From: a virus
Direction: 5' to 3' (one strand)
Virus record (IMG/VR): IMGVR_UViG_3300048691_000142
Location: 1 to 27,599 of that record
Length of the DNA stretch: 27,599 bases
Made by a program: the position numbers and the translations under genes. This document shows, in pieces, positions 471 through 13,055 of the stretch; positions within the stretch are counted from its first letter, which is position 1; every line of letters begins with the position of its first letter. Under the pieces are notes generated by a model that saw nothing but the letters and a program-made list of their open reading frames with translations, did not search any database and was not told where the DNA came from.

Positions 471-835
471 CGCGCCAACGTGACTTTATACATCAGATCA
501 ACGCCAGCGGGCGCAATCGTTTCAACATATGCAATGCTATGGCAAACGCCCCGCACAGTGATCCAGTCGCCCGTTTGCGGCACAACCCCAGACGCTTCAA
601 CAAGCAATCGCCGCGTGATTTCGCCAGTCAAATTGCCCGCCATATCTTTTTCTTTGATATTTGAATCAATCACCACAACATCATAGGTTGCAGGCCAGCC
701 AGCGACAGGCGCATACTCAGGCCCAGACCCAATGCCGCGCCGTGAAATAGTTGCAACCAGTGGCCCAGCGCCCGTTGCAATACCTGCTTCCCGCAAGCCC
801 GCCGCAATCTGTGCAGCAATATCTAGGCCATTCAT
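467..835 (-). CDS. putative head-tail connector / head closure protein
   Basis: This 122-aa protein starts at ATG 835, which overlaps the previous stop (ATGA). It ends by overlapping the next start, so the operon is translationally coupled. It has a helical N-terminus (NGLDIAAQIAAGLREAGI) followed by beta-rich sequence. That pattern matches the small head closure or stopper proteins that sit between the DnaT-like connector gene and later head-tail genes in many siphoviruses. I see no catalytic motif. The role is inferred mainly from length, fold pattern and gene order. Confidence 0.5.
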   Translation of the reverse strand: MNGLDIAAQIAAGLREAGIATGAGPLVATISRRGIGSGPEYAPVAGWPATYDVVVIDSNIKEKDMAGNLTGEITRRLLVEASGVVPQTGDWITVRGVCHSIAYVETIAPAGVDLMYKVTLAR

Positions 836-1305
836 GCCAGCATAATCCCCGTTGTGCCGCCGCCTGAACCAGACGGGTTATAGTCAAGCCATGGCTTTAA
901 AAAATCAAATCCCGCCGTTACAATAGGGCGGCTATTGGCAACAGTTGCATCGCCGCCAAGAACTTGCCATTTGATCGAGTCCACGCCAACCAGAGCCTTT
1001 TGCCCTGTAAGCGTCACGGATGGCGATAGCGCCCCAATGGCCGCAGATTCCGCGCGCGCAAAAACCGCTTGCGCGCGCTTCACGTCATCAGGGATAGCGC
1101 CGCCGAACAAAGGCCAGTAGCCAGTAGCCCAACTCAATGACTTCATATAATAAAACGCGCGACGCAAAGCGGCTTCGTTCAATGCGGCAACGCCCCCAAA
1201 GAAACTTGCCCCGAACAGCGCCACCGCAATCACATCGCATTCCGCCAAGCTGATAAATGTATCAGCCCCCGTGACGCCAGTTCCATCTTCAATAACAAGC
1301 GACAT
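832..1305 (-). CDS. DnaT-like / head-tail adaptor protein
   Basis: This 157-aa protein starts at MSLVIEDGTGV. The ATG at 1305 has a GGGGAA Shine-Dalgarno 7 nt upstream, whereas the ATG at 1317 has none. The opening (VIEDGTG..GADTFISL) and the helical segment ALRRAFYYMKSL are typical of the phage family often labelled DnaT-like ssDNA-binding protein. Members of this family sit right after the capsid gene and are thought to act as head-tail adaptors. The C-terminus is glycine-rich (PSGSGGGTTG). Gene order (capsid, small protein, this gene, head closure) supports a structural role over a replication role. Confidence 0.6.
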   Translation of the reverse strand: MSLVIEDGTGVTGADTFISLAECDVIAVALFGASFFGGVAALNEAALRRAFYYMKSLSWATGYWPLFGGAIPDDVKRAQAVFARAESAAIGALSPSVTLTGQKALVGVDSIKWQVLGGDATVANSRPIVTAGFDFLKPWLDYNPSGSGGGTTGIMLA

Positions 1306-2455: not shown

Positions 2456-2887
2456 TTAGCCCAGATACACGCGGGCAAGATTGCCAGCAGTTGCGGTGGT
2501 TTCAAACTTCGCGTCAGCTACGGTTGTCGCCAATCCCGCGCCAATAACACCAGTTGCGGCGGTGAACGTGACGGGCGTTGCGGGCGTGACGTTTGTCGAA
2601 ACAACCACCCAAACCGTGCCCTTGCGGATTACGCCTGCAACCTCGCCAACCACATACAGGTCTGCGGTGCGGGTTTTATCGGCAACAGAAATGCCCGCGA
2701 AGCCAGCGCCGTCTAGCTTAACAGAGTTATCAGCCGCTCCAGCGCCAACAGCAAGACCAAACGCGACAGAAGCGGTTTCAACAACCTTGGACGCCACATC
2801 CTTGAACGCTTGGCTTTCCGCGATCATGCCCGCATAACCAACGGCAGGCGCGCTTGTGTAGGTCCCTACAAAATCAGTAACTGGCAT
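2456..2887 (-). CDS. structural cement / decoration protein (Gp24-like)
   Basis: This 143-aa protein starts at MPVTDF (ATG 2887), overlapping the upstream stop by 1 nt (TAATG) and with AAGGGG upstream. The sequence is rich in A, V, T and G and beta-strand forming. A repeated pattern of the type GEVAGVIRKGTVWVVV and a TPATPVTFTAATGVIG segment match the small cement proteins that stabilise capsids in DUF2184/DUF1073 head modules. It lies immediately upstream of the major capsid gene, the usual place for this protein. No enzymatic role is expected. Confidence 0.65.
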   Translation of the reverse strand: MPVTDFVGTYTSAPAVGYAGMIAESQAFKDVASKVVETASVAFGLAVGAGAADNSVKLDGAGFAGISVADKTRTADLYVVGEVAGVIRKGTVWVVVSTNVTPATPVTFTAATGVIGAGLATTVADAKFETTATAGNLARVYLG

Positions 2888-3411
2888 TATACTGCCCCTT
2901 TCCATGCGTCAGACATTTTCTTATCACGTTCAGCGTAAAATGCATCCAAGGAGTCCGCCGATTTGGACACGACCTTCACGCCGTCAAGGATATCGCTATC
3001 GGCAAGAATATCAAACCGCGCGTCAATATACGCGTCCGACTTGCCCGCGATAACCGCGTCACCCAGAACAGCAACCACAGCCGCTTTGCGAATGGCCGCA
3101 TCCGACAGGCCTGATGGGTTGAACCCCTTGGTAATCAGCGCCACCTTCGCCAACAATTCAGCGCGATCCGCAACGAGCTTATCAAGCGCCGCATCGGTCA
3201 GCTTGTCGGCATCTGCCTTTGCAATCGCCGCGTCTTTTTTTGCCATTTCAGCCTCAAGATCGGCCTTTTCTTTTGCCGCCTTCAATTCCGCAGCGCTCAA
3301 TTTCGCCTCGGAATCAGCAAGCGCCTTGGTCAGCTTTTCAATAGCTGCCGCGCCTGCGTCGGTCGTAGGGACCTGCAAGCCGTCAACCAGAATCGTGCGT
3401 AAATCAGCCAT
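2887..3411 (-). CDS. C-terminal scaffold-like part of DUF2213 protein (downstream of in-frame TAA)
   Basis: This frame continues the DUF2213 gene after the in-frame stop at 3583-3585. The best internal start is ATG 3411 (MADLRTILVDG), with AGGGGG 5 nt upstream, giving 174 aa. Residues about 20-85 form a long charged coiled coil (KALADSEAKLSAAELKAA and following), typical of capsid scaffolds. The C-terminus (DAFYAERDKKMSDAWKGA) matches the end of DUF2213 proteins. Even with the upstream stop, the internal site could yield a free scaffold domain, as happens in many phages with nested protease-scaffold genes. Whether this start is used is inference. Confidence 0.6.
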   Translation of the reverse strand: MADLRTILVDGLQVPTTDAGAAAIEKLTKALADSEAKLSAAELKAAKEKADLEAEMAKKDAAIAKADADKLTDAALDKLVADRAELLAKVALITKGFNPSGLSDAAIRKAAVVAVLGDAVIAGKSDAYIDARFDILADSDILDGVKVVSKSADSLDAFYAERDKKMSDAWKGAV

Positions 3412-3582
3412 TTGGCCCCCTTTTACAGTTACAGGACTTGCGCCCCAGTTGGTCGCACCGTCACCAATGCGCAGTTTCTCGCCACCGCGCGCTTTTGGCA
3501 CGATTGCTAGATGGTTAATTTTAATCGGCCCAACCTGCGTGGCCTGATATGCGGTTCCGTCGGGGGCAATACCGTCACCGAT

Positions 3583-3984
3583 TTAAATGGCGGTCGTATA
3601 TCCCATGCTGATTTCGCGGGTGCCGTCATTTACCGCCGCAATCGCCGCCGCGTCCATTAGCGCGATTGATACCCGAACAAACTCGCCATCACGCGCGACG
3701 CCCTCGCCAACCGTCCCGGCCGCGTGATCCTTCCAGCTATCAGCTGTAACAGATTCATGCGGGTGCCCTAGCGTAACAGGCTTTCCAGCGTATGTTGCAA
3801 GGCTCGCGCGGTCAAAAACCACATCAGCGGGCCGATACACGGTGACAACGCCACTGCCGTCAAGGCCAACCTCGGACGCCATATAATCTTGGCAGCCAGT
3901 GCGAGCGCAAAGAACCTCGCCCGCCAAATAACCATCACTGGTTTTGCGAAAGCCTGAAATAACGGCGCGGTCACTGAATTGCAT
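3583..3984 (-). pseudogene. N-terminal prohead protease-like part of DUF2213 protein, ended by premature TAA
   Basis: The start MQFSDRAVISG (ATG 3984) is chosen over the ATG at 3996 because a GGGGG site lies just upstream of it. The protein is 133 aa and ends GTREISMGYTTAI before TAA. REISMGY is the well-conserved DUF2213 signature, and in intact homologues the chain continues through an APDGTAYQATQ-like segment to NHLAIV. Exactly this continues here in the same frame after the stop (codons 3582-3502). The intact protein would be 365 residues, so this is an interrupted gene, a readthrough gene or a sequence error. DUF2213 proteins occupy the prohead protease/scaffold position between portal and capsid. 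Confidence 0.7.
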
Positions 3985-4023
3985 AAAAGCCCCCATGTTG
4001 TGCAGTCATACCACAATAACACA

Positions 4024-9199: not shown

Positions 9200-9879
9200 C
9201 ACACAGCCTCCGCAATTAGGCGAAGGATTGCGTCGCGTTGGCGCAGCACGACGGCATAGGCGGCATAGACGGCATAGGCGGCATCGACGGCATAGGCGGC
9301 ATAGGCGGCATCGACGGCATAGGCGGCGGCATAGGCGGCATCGGCGGCATCGACGGCATCGACGGCATAGGCGGCATAGGCGGCATAGGCGGCATCGACG
9401 GCATCGACGGCATCGACGGCATAGGCGGCGGCATAGGCGGCATAGGCGGCATCGGCGATCCACTCAAGTCCCTGCGCTTTCAAATCCATACCAGCGATCA
9501 CTGGGTCAATAACCGCCTGAATATGCGCGGGTTGCGCGGGCAGTGCGCGCAATTCAGACGCAAGAAACGCCCAGCCAACCCGCGTCAAATCTTTCCCATC
9601 GCGGCCAACTGCCAGTGGGATGGCGGCGTGGAATGCAATGCCATCCGCATCTGACAGCCGTTCAAAAATGCTCTCGCAAATCCGCGTCAGCATCAGCGGA
9701 AAGCCGTATTTTTCTTCAAGCCACAGCGGGTTATTACCGCCAGCGTGACAGCCGATAAAACAAGCCTGTCCCTGTTCGTTTTTTACGTAATGCCCTTTTT
9801 GCACCAAATCCATATCAACGTGCCGCTGAGCCTCAGCAATGAATGCGGCGGTGTTTTTCGTTAGCATGATATTCTCCAT
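9199..9879 (-). CDS. phage protein with N-terminal conserved domain and Ala-Tyr-Ala / Val-Asp-Ala tandem repeat
   Basis: The start is either ATG 9879 (MENIMLTK; AGGGA 9 nt upstream) or ATG 9867 (MLTKNTAAF; GGAG 6 nt upstream, the better site). Residues up to about 140 form a conserved-looking domain (QACFIGCHAGGNNPLWLEEKYG; then AVGRDGKDLTRVGWAFLASE; then IQAVIDPVIAGMDL). Then come about 65 residues of three-residue units, mainly AYA and VDA, ending in a basic helix RQRDAILRLIAEA. Regularly spaced alanine suggests a long helix or solenoid-like packing with Tyr and Asp at fixed faces. Similar repeat-tailed proteins are seen in other phages; function is unknown. Confidence 0.75.
   Translation of the reverse strand: MENIMLTKNTAAFIAEAQRHVDMDLVQKGHYVKNEQGQACFIGCHAGGNNPLWLEEKYGFPLMLTRICESIFERLSDADGIAFHAAIPLAVGRDGKDLTRVGWAFLASELRALPAQPAHIQAVIDPVIAGMDLKAQGLEWIADAAYAAYAAAYAVDAVDAVDAAYAAYAAYAVDAVDAADAAYAAAYAVDAAYAAYAVDAAYAVYAAYAVVLRQRDAILRLIAEAV
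9248..9458. repeat. 9-bp tandem repeat tract (GGCATAGGC / GGCATCGAC variants)
   Basis: About 210 bp consist of interleaved 9-mers built from GGCATAGGC, GGCGGCATA and GGCATCGAC. Because 9 is a multiple of 3, slippage changes the number of AYA/VDA units without breaking the frame of the minus-strand gene at 9199-9879. Spurious ORFs appear on both strands and in other frames for the same reason. The order of the two unit types is irregular, suggesting repeated expansion and contraction. Confidence 0.85.
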
Positions 9880-9923
9880 TATTGCGCTTCCCTGCAACCC
9901 ATATACGCGCCCGCGCGGCGGAT

Positions 9924-10002
9924 TGCAACGGTTATTTTAAAAGGTTGCAAGATTTTCCAAACTGCAACAGGAATGCAACCGCGATTGCAACCCGTTTGCA
10001 AC
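9924..10002. repeat. helically phased TGCAAC iteron-like repeats
   Basis: TGCAAC occurs at 9924-9929, in reverse orientation at 9944-9949, and then directly at 9963, 9974, 9986 and 9997. The last four are spaced 11, 12 and 11 bp, about one helix turn, so a bound protein would stack on one face. Further single copies occur at 10157 and 10262. Most copies are preceded by T or A and followed by C. This arrangement is expected of iterons or cooperative operators. Confidence 0.6.
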
Positions 10003-10197
10003 CACTAAGTCACTGTTCTATATATATATTAATAAAAAGTAGTAATATATATATATATAAGAGACTCTATGAAGAGGTCTATCTCTATGGGTGTGTCTGT
10101 CAATACGATTTACAACGCATTCTATCTCTACCTATGCCTCTCTTATCTCGCAAAAATGCAACTTTTCAGTTTTATTGTTTAATATCAATAACTTAGT

Positions 10198-10228
10198 GGT
10201 TGTAAACTGGTTGTAAACTGGTTGTTTT
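10198..10228. repeat. 11-bp direct repeat GGTTGTAAACT, 2.5 copies
   Basis: GGTTGTAAACT is present at 10198-10208 and 10209-10219, followed by a partial GGTTGTTTT. The period of 11 bp again matches one helix turn. On the opposite strand the unit reads AGTTTACAACC, sharing TTTACA with the palindromes described elsewhere in this annotation. Confidence 0.6.
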
Positions 10229-10316
10229 GGCCTGTTTTCGAGTTGTAACGCGCCACCGAAATGCAACCAAATAGGCCTTTTTTGCCCAAAATTGCCTTGG
10301 CGAAAAGTAGATCAGG

Positions 10317-10380
10317 CCACCGTCAATACGTATTGACAATGTAAAACTAAAAACGCAAAGTGAAATCGTATTGACGGTGG
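10317..10380. promoter_or_regulatory. operator-like inverted repeat with 16-bp perfect palindrome overlapping the primase ribosome site
   Basis: CCACCGTCAATACG (10317-10330) and its exact reverse complement (10367-10380) flank 36 bp. Inside the left part, GTCAATACGTATTGAC (10322-10337) is itself a perfect palindrome. The half-site GTATTGAC thus occurs three times here, plus a fourth copy at 10099-10106. The right arm covers GGTGGAG, the Shine-Dalgarno of the gene at 10389, so protein binding or an RNA stem could control both transcription and translation. TTGACA at 10334-10339 could be a -35 element, but a good -10 is not evident. Confidence 0.6.
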
Positions 10381-10388
10381 AGCCTACC

Positions 10389-13055
10389 ATGACAGACCCG
10401 ATTTCCGCGTTTATTGACCACATGCGAGAGGTGGGATGCGCGCCAAGCGGGTGCGAAATTGTCCCCGATGATAAGCCGCACCGATACCATGTGGACGGCG
10501 ACGCACCCCGCACCAAGAACGGCAGTTACAAGGTAAAGGTCGAGGCTGACGGGTTTGCGGTCGGCTGGTGTATGAGTTTCCGCGAGGGGATCACGCATTC
10601 TTGGCACATCAAAGCAACGAAAAAATACAGCGAAGAAGACCGCGCCGCATTCAAGGCGAAGGCTCAAGCAGCGAAAGAAAAGCGCCAGCAAGAGGCGGAT
10701 GCGGATGCGGCATCGGCGGCTGATAAGGCGCGACGGCTATGGAAAAGCGCTGATCAGTCGGGCGATGCTGGATATATTTCTCGCAAGTCTTTGCCGCAAT
10801 TGTTCGGGGCGAAGGTATCGCGCGGCATGGTTGTTGTTCCATGTTGGACGGCTGATGGCCTATCAAGCCTGCAATTTATCGCAGCGGATGGGCAAAAGCG
10901 GTTCCTGCGAGGCGGGTCAATGATCGGTGCATATCATGCCATTCCAAGCCCAGACGCGACAGCGCCAATGGTTATTTGCGAGGGATACGCGACAGGGTGC
11001 AAAATACATATGGCAACGGGATACGCAGTGATATGTGCGTTCAATGCCAGTAACCTAAAGCCCGTCACAGTGGCGATGCGCAAGAAATACCCTGCGCGCG
11101 TGATTATGATCGGCGCGGATAACGACCAATGGACAGTGCGGCCAGATGGAGCCGCATACAACGCGGGGATGGAGGGTGCGAAAGCTGCGGCCGTTGCTAT
11201 CGGTGGGGCGATGGTTGTAGCGCCGCAAGTGCCATTGAGCGATCCAGCGCGCCGCACAGACTGGGATGATGTTTATGACAGTGACGGCGCGGTGGTGGTG
11301 ACAGACGCGTTCCTGCATGCCACGCCGCCCGCGGCAGACTATGACGGCCCCGTGCATGAATACGACCATGACGGGCGCGACTACGGCGATCTGCAAATCC
11401 ACGATGCTGCGCCTGTATATGATGGAATGCCAGTTCGATGCATGGGGCGCGACGGGAATAAATACGTTCTGTTTGCCAAGCGTTCGGGAGCGCTATTCCG
11501 TATGACGGCCAGCGAGTTGTGCAGTGTTCCAGGCTTATCGAGAATCGCCATGATCGAGGTGTGGCGGTCAGCGCTGGGCGACGCGAAGGCGGGCGCTAAG
11601 GATGTTGCGGCAATGGCTGGGGCGGCGCTGTTAGCGGCGAGTGACGCGGCTGGGGTGTGGAGTGATGATAAGGTGCGCGGCATTGGCCTATGGATGGATG
11701 CTGGGCGGCGTGTGGCGCATTTGGGCGACTCTCTGGTGATAGATGGCTCAGACGTGCGGCCATATGATCAGAATGGGCGCTATGTATATGAAGCGGGGCA
11801 ACGGGCTATCAACTTGGGGCATGATGGGCTGACCAACACATGCGCGGCTAAATTGCGTGAAATATGCCGTATGCCGTCATGGGAAAACCATTTGAGCGGC
11901 GATATTTTGGCGGGTCATTTGGTGGCGAGTATTGCTTGCGCGGCCCTGCATTGGCGACCGCATTTGTGGATCACCGGTGATAGCGGTTCTGGTAAAACAA
12001 CCGTTATGGACAGTATCATCAAGGCTATTCTAGCAGGCATGGCAATTGAGGGCAGCGGCATGACGACCGAGGCAGGCTTGCGGCAGGAAATGAAGCGATC
12101 AGCGCGGCCTGTTATTTTTGACGAGGCCGAGTCCGAGGGTGCGGCGGCAAAAATGCGCATGGAGAATGTGCTGCAATTGGCCCGCCTATCATCATCGGGC
12201 GGCAAGGTTACAAAGGGCACGGCAGGGGGCGAGGGCAGTATTTCATTCACCGCGCGATCGACATTTGTTTTTGCGGCGATCAATCCCAGTATTAAAAACC
12301 TTGCAGATGAAAACCGCATTACGGTCCTAACATTGGTGCGGGATAAAAAAGATGGGGCTGACGAACGGTTTAGCGCGCTGATGAAAATGATTGCTGAAAC
12401 GATCACGCCTGAATATTCGGCGGGTTTGGCGCGTCGGGTTTATGACAATTTGAACGTTCTGCTGGCGAATATCGGCATATTCCGTCGCGCGTTGCTAGGC
12501 GTTCTGAAAGTCGCGCGGGATTGTGATCAGTTGGCCCCAATGCTGGCTGGTGTGTTTTTGCTGACAAGCGACAAGGAAATTGATTTTGAACGGGCGCGGG
12601 ACTGGTGCGAAAGGAACGCCAGCGGGCTAATCCGATACACGCAACCCGTCGAAGTTAGCGATCAGTCGCGCCTATTAACGCGGATCATGACATATGTGAC
12701 GCGGGTTACAGGTCTTGCCACAACGAAAGAGGACACTGTTGGCAATTTGATTGCGCGGGCGGCAAGTGCCGAGGGGGATGGCGCTGCAAAGAAACACCTT
12801 GGGACAATGGGTATTCGTGTTTTTGATGGTCATATCATCATTGCGAACAAATCCCCCGCGATCAGTCGCATATTGGCGGAAACCGAGTGGACGGACTGGA
12901 AACGCCCGCTGCTTGGGTTGGACGGCGCGGAACCGACAAAGTTCACGCACTTTGCGGCTGGGTTTAAGGCGTATGGAGTTAGCATCCCATTATCGCATGT
13001 TTTGGATGATGTTGCGCCAGAACAAGAGTTGTCTTTTGATATGGAGCGTTTCTGA
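10389..13055 (+). CDS. phage primase-helicase (TOPRIM domain plus C-terminal AAA-type helicase)
   Basis: This 888-aa protein starts at MTDPISAFIDHM (ATG 10389, GGAG 7 nt upstream). Residues about 1-100 contain a beta-rich region with SWHIKATKKYSEEDRA, then a charged helix. A TOPRIM-like domain spans about 150-300 (MVICEGYATG near 194; VIMIGADND near 240). A middle domain is followed by an ATPase: Walker A GDSGSGKTT near 530, FDEAESEG as Walker B near 577, and a sensor-like FAAINPS near 630. The combination resembles P4 alpha-type or DUF927-type primase-helicases that initiate and unwind at a phage origin. It lies directly downstream of the iteron-bearing region, which fits an origin-recognition role. 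No separate DNA polymerase is seen. Confidence 0.85.
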   Translation: MTDPISAFIDHMREVGCAPSGCEIVPDDKPHRYHVDGDAPRTKNGSYKVKVEADGFAVGWCMSFREGITHSWHIKATKKYSEEDRAAFKAKAQAAKEKRQQEADADAASAADKARRLWKSADQSGDAGYISRKSLPQLFGAKVSRGMVVVPCWTADGLSSLQFIAADGQKRFLRGGSMIGAYHAIPSPDATAPMVICEGYATGCKIHMATGYAVICAFNASNLKPVTVAMRKKYPARVIMIGADNDQWTVRPDGAAYNAGMEGAKAAAVAIGGAMVVAPQVPLSDPARRTDWDDVYDSDGAVVVTDAFLHATPPAADYDGPVHEYDHDGRDYGDLQIHDAAPVYDGMPVRCMGRDGNKYVLFAKRSGALFRMTASELCSVPGLSRIAMIEVWRSALGDAKAGAKDVAAMAGAALLAASDAAGVWSDDKVRGIGLWMDAGRRVAHLGDSLVIDGSDVRPYDQNGRYVYEAGQRAINLGHDGLTNTCAAKLREICRMPSWENHLSGDILAGHLVASIACAALHWRPHLWITGDSGSGKTTVMDSIIKAILAGMAIEGSGMTTEAGLRQEMKRSARPVIFDEAESEGAAAKMRMENVLQLARLSSSGGKVTKGTAGGEGSISFTARSTFVFAAINPSIKNLADENRITVLTLVRDKKDGADERFSALMKMIAETITPEYSAGLARRVYDNLNVLLANIGIFRRALLGVLKVARDCDQLAPMLAGVFLLTSDKEIDFERARDWCERNASGLIRYTQPVEVSDQSRLLTRIMTYVTRVTGLATTKEDTVGNLIARAASAEGDGAAKKHLGTMGIRVFDGHIIIANKSPAISRILAETEWTDWKRPLLGLDGAEPTKFTHFAAGFKAYGVSIPLSHVLDDVAPEQELSFDMERF

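Follow-up and report, generated by a model that had tools for sequence, protein, structure and literature searches.

The window analysed here, i.e., the whole stretch of DNA under consideration, is a 27.6 kb contig of a tailed phage that is present as an IMG/VR virus record. Its leftward genes encode the major head protein, the head protease, the portal as well as the large and the small terminase, and its rightward genes encode a primase-helicase, an SF2 helicase, a Dda-like helicase, an endonuclease-like protein and a YqaJ/RecE-like exonuclease. Both groups are separated by a gap of 509 bp, with the leftward genes running from 9879 and the primase-helicase gene starting at 10389 (Table 1), so that the primase-helicase indeed lies just downstream in a divergent gap, as had been stated in an earlier note on this DNA. 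No supported gene is located inside 9880-10388, in line with the statement of the same note that no protein gene explains the region. The head maturation protease (phrog_530) is present in two ORFs on the minus strand, 3583-3996 and 2887-3501, within 2887-3996; both match consecutive parts of one family, which can be due to a frameshift, an assembly error or a real split. Moreover, the leftward gene adjoining the gap contains a 9-bp tandem array with 22 copies (CGGCATAGG) at 9252-9457, which encodes AYA/VDA repeats, has several open frames and is without a PHROG match.

Table 1. Features of the divergent gap and of the adjoining primase-helicase gene (positions in the window).
Feature	Position	Strand	Remarks
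Divergent intergenic gap, proposed replication origin (iterons, A/T core, iterons)	9880-10388	.	Flanked by leftward and rightward genes
Outer left iterons	9893-9949	.	TGCAAC direct at 9893 and 9924; GGTTGCAA inverted at 9943
Left phased array	9963-10003	-	Four TTGCAACC-type iterons, starts 9963, 9974, 9986, 9997; spacing 11, 12, 11 bp
A/T core, proposed unwinding element	10019-10060	.	TATATATATAT - TAATAAAAAGTAGTA - (AT)n; two microsatellite arms
Single right-hand iteron copies	10111-10268	.	10111, 10157, 10242 (GTTGTA), 10262; motif count
Right phased array	10197-10227	+	GGTTGTAA at 10198 and 10209, GGTTGTTT at 10220; 11-bp tandem
Primase-helicase, proposed initiator	10389-13055	+	888 aa; PF13362 Toprim_3 6e-10; phrog_35358 DNA primase 3e-128; fold matches
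Primase-helicase domains	residues ~92-309, ~470-756, ~756-872		TOPRIM; AAA+ MCM/Cch-like helicase; C-terminal DNA-binding-like
C-terminal domain, proposed iteron reader	12654-13004	+	Residues 756-872; weak SaPIbov1 Rep fold match; divergence tracks iteron identity

The gap contains 13 copies of the motif GTTGYA, compared to a mean of 0.84 and a maximum of 7 in 2000 dinucleotide shuffles of the gap, and other 509-bp stretches of the window have at most five copies each. The copies flank the A/T tract 10019-10060 on the left as well as on the right. On the left, the four direct TGCAAC copies reported earlier are present with exactly the spacing that had been given (Table 1), which corresponds to about one helical turn. 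Of the additional left copies, the direct one at 9924 and the inverted one at 9944 had been recognized, but another direct copy at 9893 had been overlooked. Similarly, the array beside the A/T tract is real on the left, but the entire right-hand array had been missed, and the view of a single array was therefore too narrow. This right array is a perfect 11-bp repeat of GGTTGTAA at 10197-10225, contains two perfect TGGTTGTAAAC units and is inverted relative to the left one, with 17-nt arms (9988-10004 and 10208-10224) that are 88% complementary. The tract described before as nearly pure A/T at 10020-10060 is confirmed, as the 40 bp starting at 10019 are 95% A+T, and it represents the least stable 30 bp in the entire window. 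DnaA boxes (TTWTNCACA with one mismatch) are at chance level, with only two one-mismatch matches in the gap.

Besides the iterons, a second motif, CGTATTGAC, has all four of its exact window copies inside the gap (10099-10107, 10322-10337, and 10367-10375). These include a perfect palindrome, GTCAATACGTATTGAC, just upstream of the primase gene, where also a 21-nt inverted repeat (10317-10337 and 10360-10380) is located. The palindrome or the inverted repeat is probably an operator, and operators for the divergent promoters may overlap the proposed origin. Scans of the gap for sigma-70 promoters and terminators gave sites that are no more numerous than in shuffles. The cumulative GC-skew, which had been suggested as a check, has its minimum in the interval 9501-10500. 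However, the gene direction switches at the same place, and therefore the minimum is weak evidence for an origin.

The primase-helicase was modeled with AlphaFold (pLDDT 86.5). For the whole model, the best Foldseek match is the SCCmec helicase Cch (5dgk, E 7.5e-11), and the matches listed also include the SaPI5 helicase (7ola, 7.9e-6) and the PriRep1 helicase. Using VIA-align, residues 92-309 match the T7 primase with Z 15.8 (T7/DnaG-type TOPRIM), residues 470-756 match MCM with Z about 15, and residues 349-870 match Cch 5dgk with Z 14.8 over 409 residues. Judged by the fold of the model, the helicase half is a member of the self-loading Rep/Cch class. When the C-terminal domain was modeled alone, the top VIA-align row was SaPIbov1 Rep 452-556, a weak match with Z 5.9 (below 8), and the next rows were other DNA-binding domains and the C-terminus of Cch. 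Foldseek on this domain alone gave no significant match, Pfam no convincing domain, and the sequence profile of the region no solved relative. The fold likeness of the C-terminal domain to the C-terminus of SaPIbov1 Rep is thus suggestive only.

Near-identical DNA relatives of the window were found neither in the phage collection nor in a single-sequence scan of viral contigs, and a scan of genome contigs gave one MAG contig, labeled Cypionkella. Profile searches were needed, and the primase profile led to a near-relative set of about 25 loci with proteins that are 37-47% identical. Across the relatives the neighboring genes for the primase, the SF2 helicase and the endonuclease-like protein are conserved. 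The divergent gaps of these loci have almost no sequence in common with the window, yet most of them repeat its plan, which consists of a central A-tract, microsatellite arms, and a locus-specific word repeated on both sides. The edges of the core often carry C-runs on the left and G-runs on the right. Among the iteron words are ATAACC, CTAACG, GGTAAC, TGGCAGA, ACGCAG, GTTCTAC, CGTGAC and others, and the arms consist of units like (TA)n, (CTT)n, (TAG)n or (GTAA)n. A single iteron sequence common to the relatives was therefore rejected, as each locus has its own word. The earlier note had regarded repeats that are not conserved in relatives as an argument against an origin, which applies to the letters but not to the layout. 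Conservation of the letters was a badly posed demand, because private iterons are expected for an origin of the SaPI/PICI type. An inverted orientation of left and right iterons is found in some loci, e.g., L115, but was rejected as a general rule with 151 same versus 151 opposite pairs, a count in which the window is underrepresented. A hairpin with paired arms across the core was rejected as well, because arms other than (TA)n lack complementarity, for example where (CTT)n faces (TA)n.

In 26 of 27 near-relative loci, the lowest stability over 30 bp is found in the A/T core. The density of microsatellites is 13.9 per kb in the core versus 0.15 per kb elsewhere (~90-fold), an enrichment that is partly selected because the cores had initially been picked out visually and by their A/T content. 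The flank repeats reach p ≤ 0.05 against shuffles in 20 of 22 near loci and stand out against other segments of the same loci (Fisher 7e-12); in L093, L098, and L100 the iterons are weak or not clear. In the close pairs L110/L152 and L017/L100 the flanks, the position, the length and the low-stability skeleton are kept, and the microsatellite unit is swapped. From the comparison of these sequences it appears that the physical profile of the core is conserved, and not its sequence.

To guard against circularity, a blind test was performed on 85 more distant loci, in which the least stable 30 bp were chosen without repeat information and the flanks were scored against other segments of the same locus (cut-off p ≤ 0.05). 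Iterons were found at the least stable site in 34 of the 85 loci (binomial 3e-22). The other 51 stayed below the cut-off, part of them probably because the contig does not contain the region, and a further source of non-scoring loci is that the core does not coincide with the site of lowest stability in every case. In the controls T7, P2, Mu, lambda, SIO1, SP6, P22, and P4, one of 21 least stable sites passed. This sole passing control site lies at about 440 in T7 (L169), close to phiOL, a promoter at the left genome end. The words in the distant loci comprise GGTAAC, CGTGAC, GCAGCA, GTTCTA, TGGCAGA, ACGCAG, GCCACC and others, and L046 uses the window's own GTTGCA. Very strong private arrays near the primase gene are present in eight loci (L112, L115, L116, L133, L138, L148, L063, and L046), where as many as 11 copies surround an A/T microsatellite core within about 450 bp, either upstream or downstream of the gene. 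The primase ORF is no more than 700 bp away from 21 of the 34 iteron-bearing sites, compared to 3.7 expected, and such primase-proximal sites are usually located 90-300 bp downstream of the ORF. Thus, the element is upstream of the primase in the clade of the window and downstream in other clades, and as it is mostly downstream in the distant loci, it follows the initiator gene and not a divergent promoter. The layout is also present in the sequenced phages Bdellovibrio phi1422, Serratia MQ-4, and Synechococcus S-H1. Furthermore, phage pairs that share an iteron have a C-terminal identity above the one predicted from TOPRIM and AAA+ (p = 0.007 with classes assigned by hand, p = 0.0006 with automatic words), an effect that is small with about 0.04 identity and for which the permutation test controls shared ancestry only partly.

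A comparable organization is known from mobile elements. SaPI Rep recognizes its iterons through the C-terminal domain, seemingly as two hexamers, and Cch2 binds direct repeats beside its gene via its C-terminal domain (PMC7581432). In PICI origins, an A/T-rich region is invariably framed by two sets of iterons, and these origins support the replication of a plasmid (PMC6092414); one paper ascribes the two-sided organization to PICIs and “no other known bacterial replicon.” Similar to the window, the SaPI/PICI elements (SaPIbov1, SaPI5, and E. coli PICIs like EcCICFT073) have two element-specific iteron sets that flank an A/T-rich region, an origin adjoining the initiator gene, and an AAA+ helicase of the Rep/Cch type that carries a DNA-binding domain at its C-terminus; in the window, the helicase type is assigned by fold only and the C-terminal domain is DNA-binding-like. 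However, the primase is AEP-type in SaPI but TOPRIM-type in the phage, the core arms are microsatellites here, and the origin is located 3' of rep, whereas it is 5' in the divergent gap in the window clade and 3' in many distant relatives. That the window is a PICI itself was rejected, since it encodes the major head protein, the portal, and the large and small terminase. The α protein of P4 is also a TOPRIM primase fused to a helicase and shares 31% identity over 212 aa with the window protein, but the similarity is confined to the primase half, with only the P-loop in the helicase half detected by BLAST. The P4 ori has 8-bp GGTGAACA iterons 10-11 bp apart on both sides of an A/T stretch and, according to the annotated sequence, lies in a divergent region upstream of the α operon. 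In contrast to the window, P4 contains the second cis element crr with the same iterons; a crr-like second cluster was not found in the window (at most five GTTGYA per other 509 bp), which may be due to an incomplete contig. SCCmec Cch, the best fold match of the whole protein, and Cch2 differ in that they are without a fused TOPRIM primase, belong to a non-phage element and have few iterons.

The earlier note had assigned the region to the classical layout of iterons plus unwinding element known from lambda and iteron plasmids. This assignment does not hold, as that layout is one-sided, whereas the window is two-sided like SaPI/PICI and P4. The lambda-type ori shares phased iterons next to an A/T tract, but lies inside the initiator gene and is read by O, which recruits DnaB; the iterons of the window are intergenic and flank the tract from either side, and no O-like protein was found among the window proteins scanned. 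In several relatives the order of G-rich, TAG-repeat and A-rich parts, read outward from the core, presumably recalls the DnaA-trio repeats of the oriC basal unwinding system. It is a resemblance only, as the units here also have 2 and 4 nt, and a literal DnaA-trio mechanism was rejected because DnaA boxes are not enriched and the units are not only triplets.

A candidate replication origin, as initially proposed, is the best-supported reading of the predicted element and now has comparative evidence from the relatives. With the observed layout, iteron enrichment, location by the primase gene and helicase fold match, the gap 9880-10388 is very probably a two-sided origin of the SaPI/PICI and P4 kind, predicted to be bound by the primase-helicase via its C-terminal domain. 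By analogy with these systems we infer binding, melting, hexamer number, direction, and priming as follows. The 888-aa protein, perhaps with one hexamer per side, would read the GGTTGYAA iterons by its C-terminal domain, and the helically phased left and right arrays would keep two rings in place around the weak A/T core. This core would then melt through a distortion driven by ATP, each helicase ring would travel outward from it, and the fused TOPRIM domain would prime both forks, leading to bidirectional synthesis.

It is unlikely, but has to be considered, that the gap is an origin in which a different protein, of the phage or of the host, reads the iterons, with the primase-helicase being loaded secondarily as lambda O loads DnaB. 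The weak fold similarity and the statistics on which C-terminal recognition rests would leave room for such a reader, and small genes are present between the element and the primase in L005, L096, and L110. However, among the relatives no small gene for a DNA-binding protein was observed to be conserved together with the element, the helicase falls into the self-loading class by fold, and the iteron identity tracks the C-terminal domain. Quite improbable is a divergent promoter/operator region, in which GTTGYA would be the operators of a phage regulator that controls the leftward structural and the rightward replication operons, and the A/T tract would be an UP-element or a spacer. The position between divergent operons and the operator-like CGTATTGAC motif, restricted to the gap and with its palindrome upstream of the primase, would fit this explanation. 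However, the element of many relatives, being 90-300 bp downstream of the primase ORF, cannot be its promoter, the iterons flank the low-stability core on both sides in these downstream variants too, and sigma-70 and terminator sites do not exceed the shuffles. That the microsatellite core is a slippage by-product in a non-coding gap next to unrelated binding sites, without any origin, is hardly credible. The repeat units change freely in the two close pairs as expected from slippage, yet position, length and low-stability skeleton stay, microsatellites hardly occur elsewhere in the loci, and in the blind test iterons were found together with the core.

For the two-sided layout in tailed phages no description was found in the open-access literature searched, although it may still have been reported. 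If the predicted origins are correct, an organization claimed for PICIs alone recurs here in tailed phages. Since the layout is found beside a TOPRIM and Cch-like primase-helicase in many tailed phages, it suggests one origin type common to satellites and phages, and PICI replicons could have originated from phages, or phage replicons from PICIs. For dozens of uncultured phages, the data indicate where the origin would lie and which iteron word it would use. The same loci form a natural series from which one could learn how iterons are recognized by a C-terminal domain and how cores of very different sequence are melted by an initiator. Tentatively, and with more doubt than confidence, the origin can be regarded as a layout-conserved but sequence-free element. 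The interchangeable di-, tri-, and tetranucleotide arms and the C-run/G-run edges would then be retained in dozens of phages for their melting profile and the asymmetry of the two strands, and they may serve as a helicase loading track like a two-sided DnaA-trio. The docking word would be recoded by each phage jointly with the C-terminal domain of its primase-helicase. If this is true, replication incompatibility groups would be a private code among related phages. In L029/L134 and L099, the core is adjoined on its right by long tracts of alternating CA/CACG/CATG, which possibly form Z-DNA, and L013 and L017 carry CGCGCGCACACA-like tracts at the same place.
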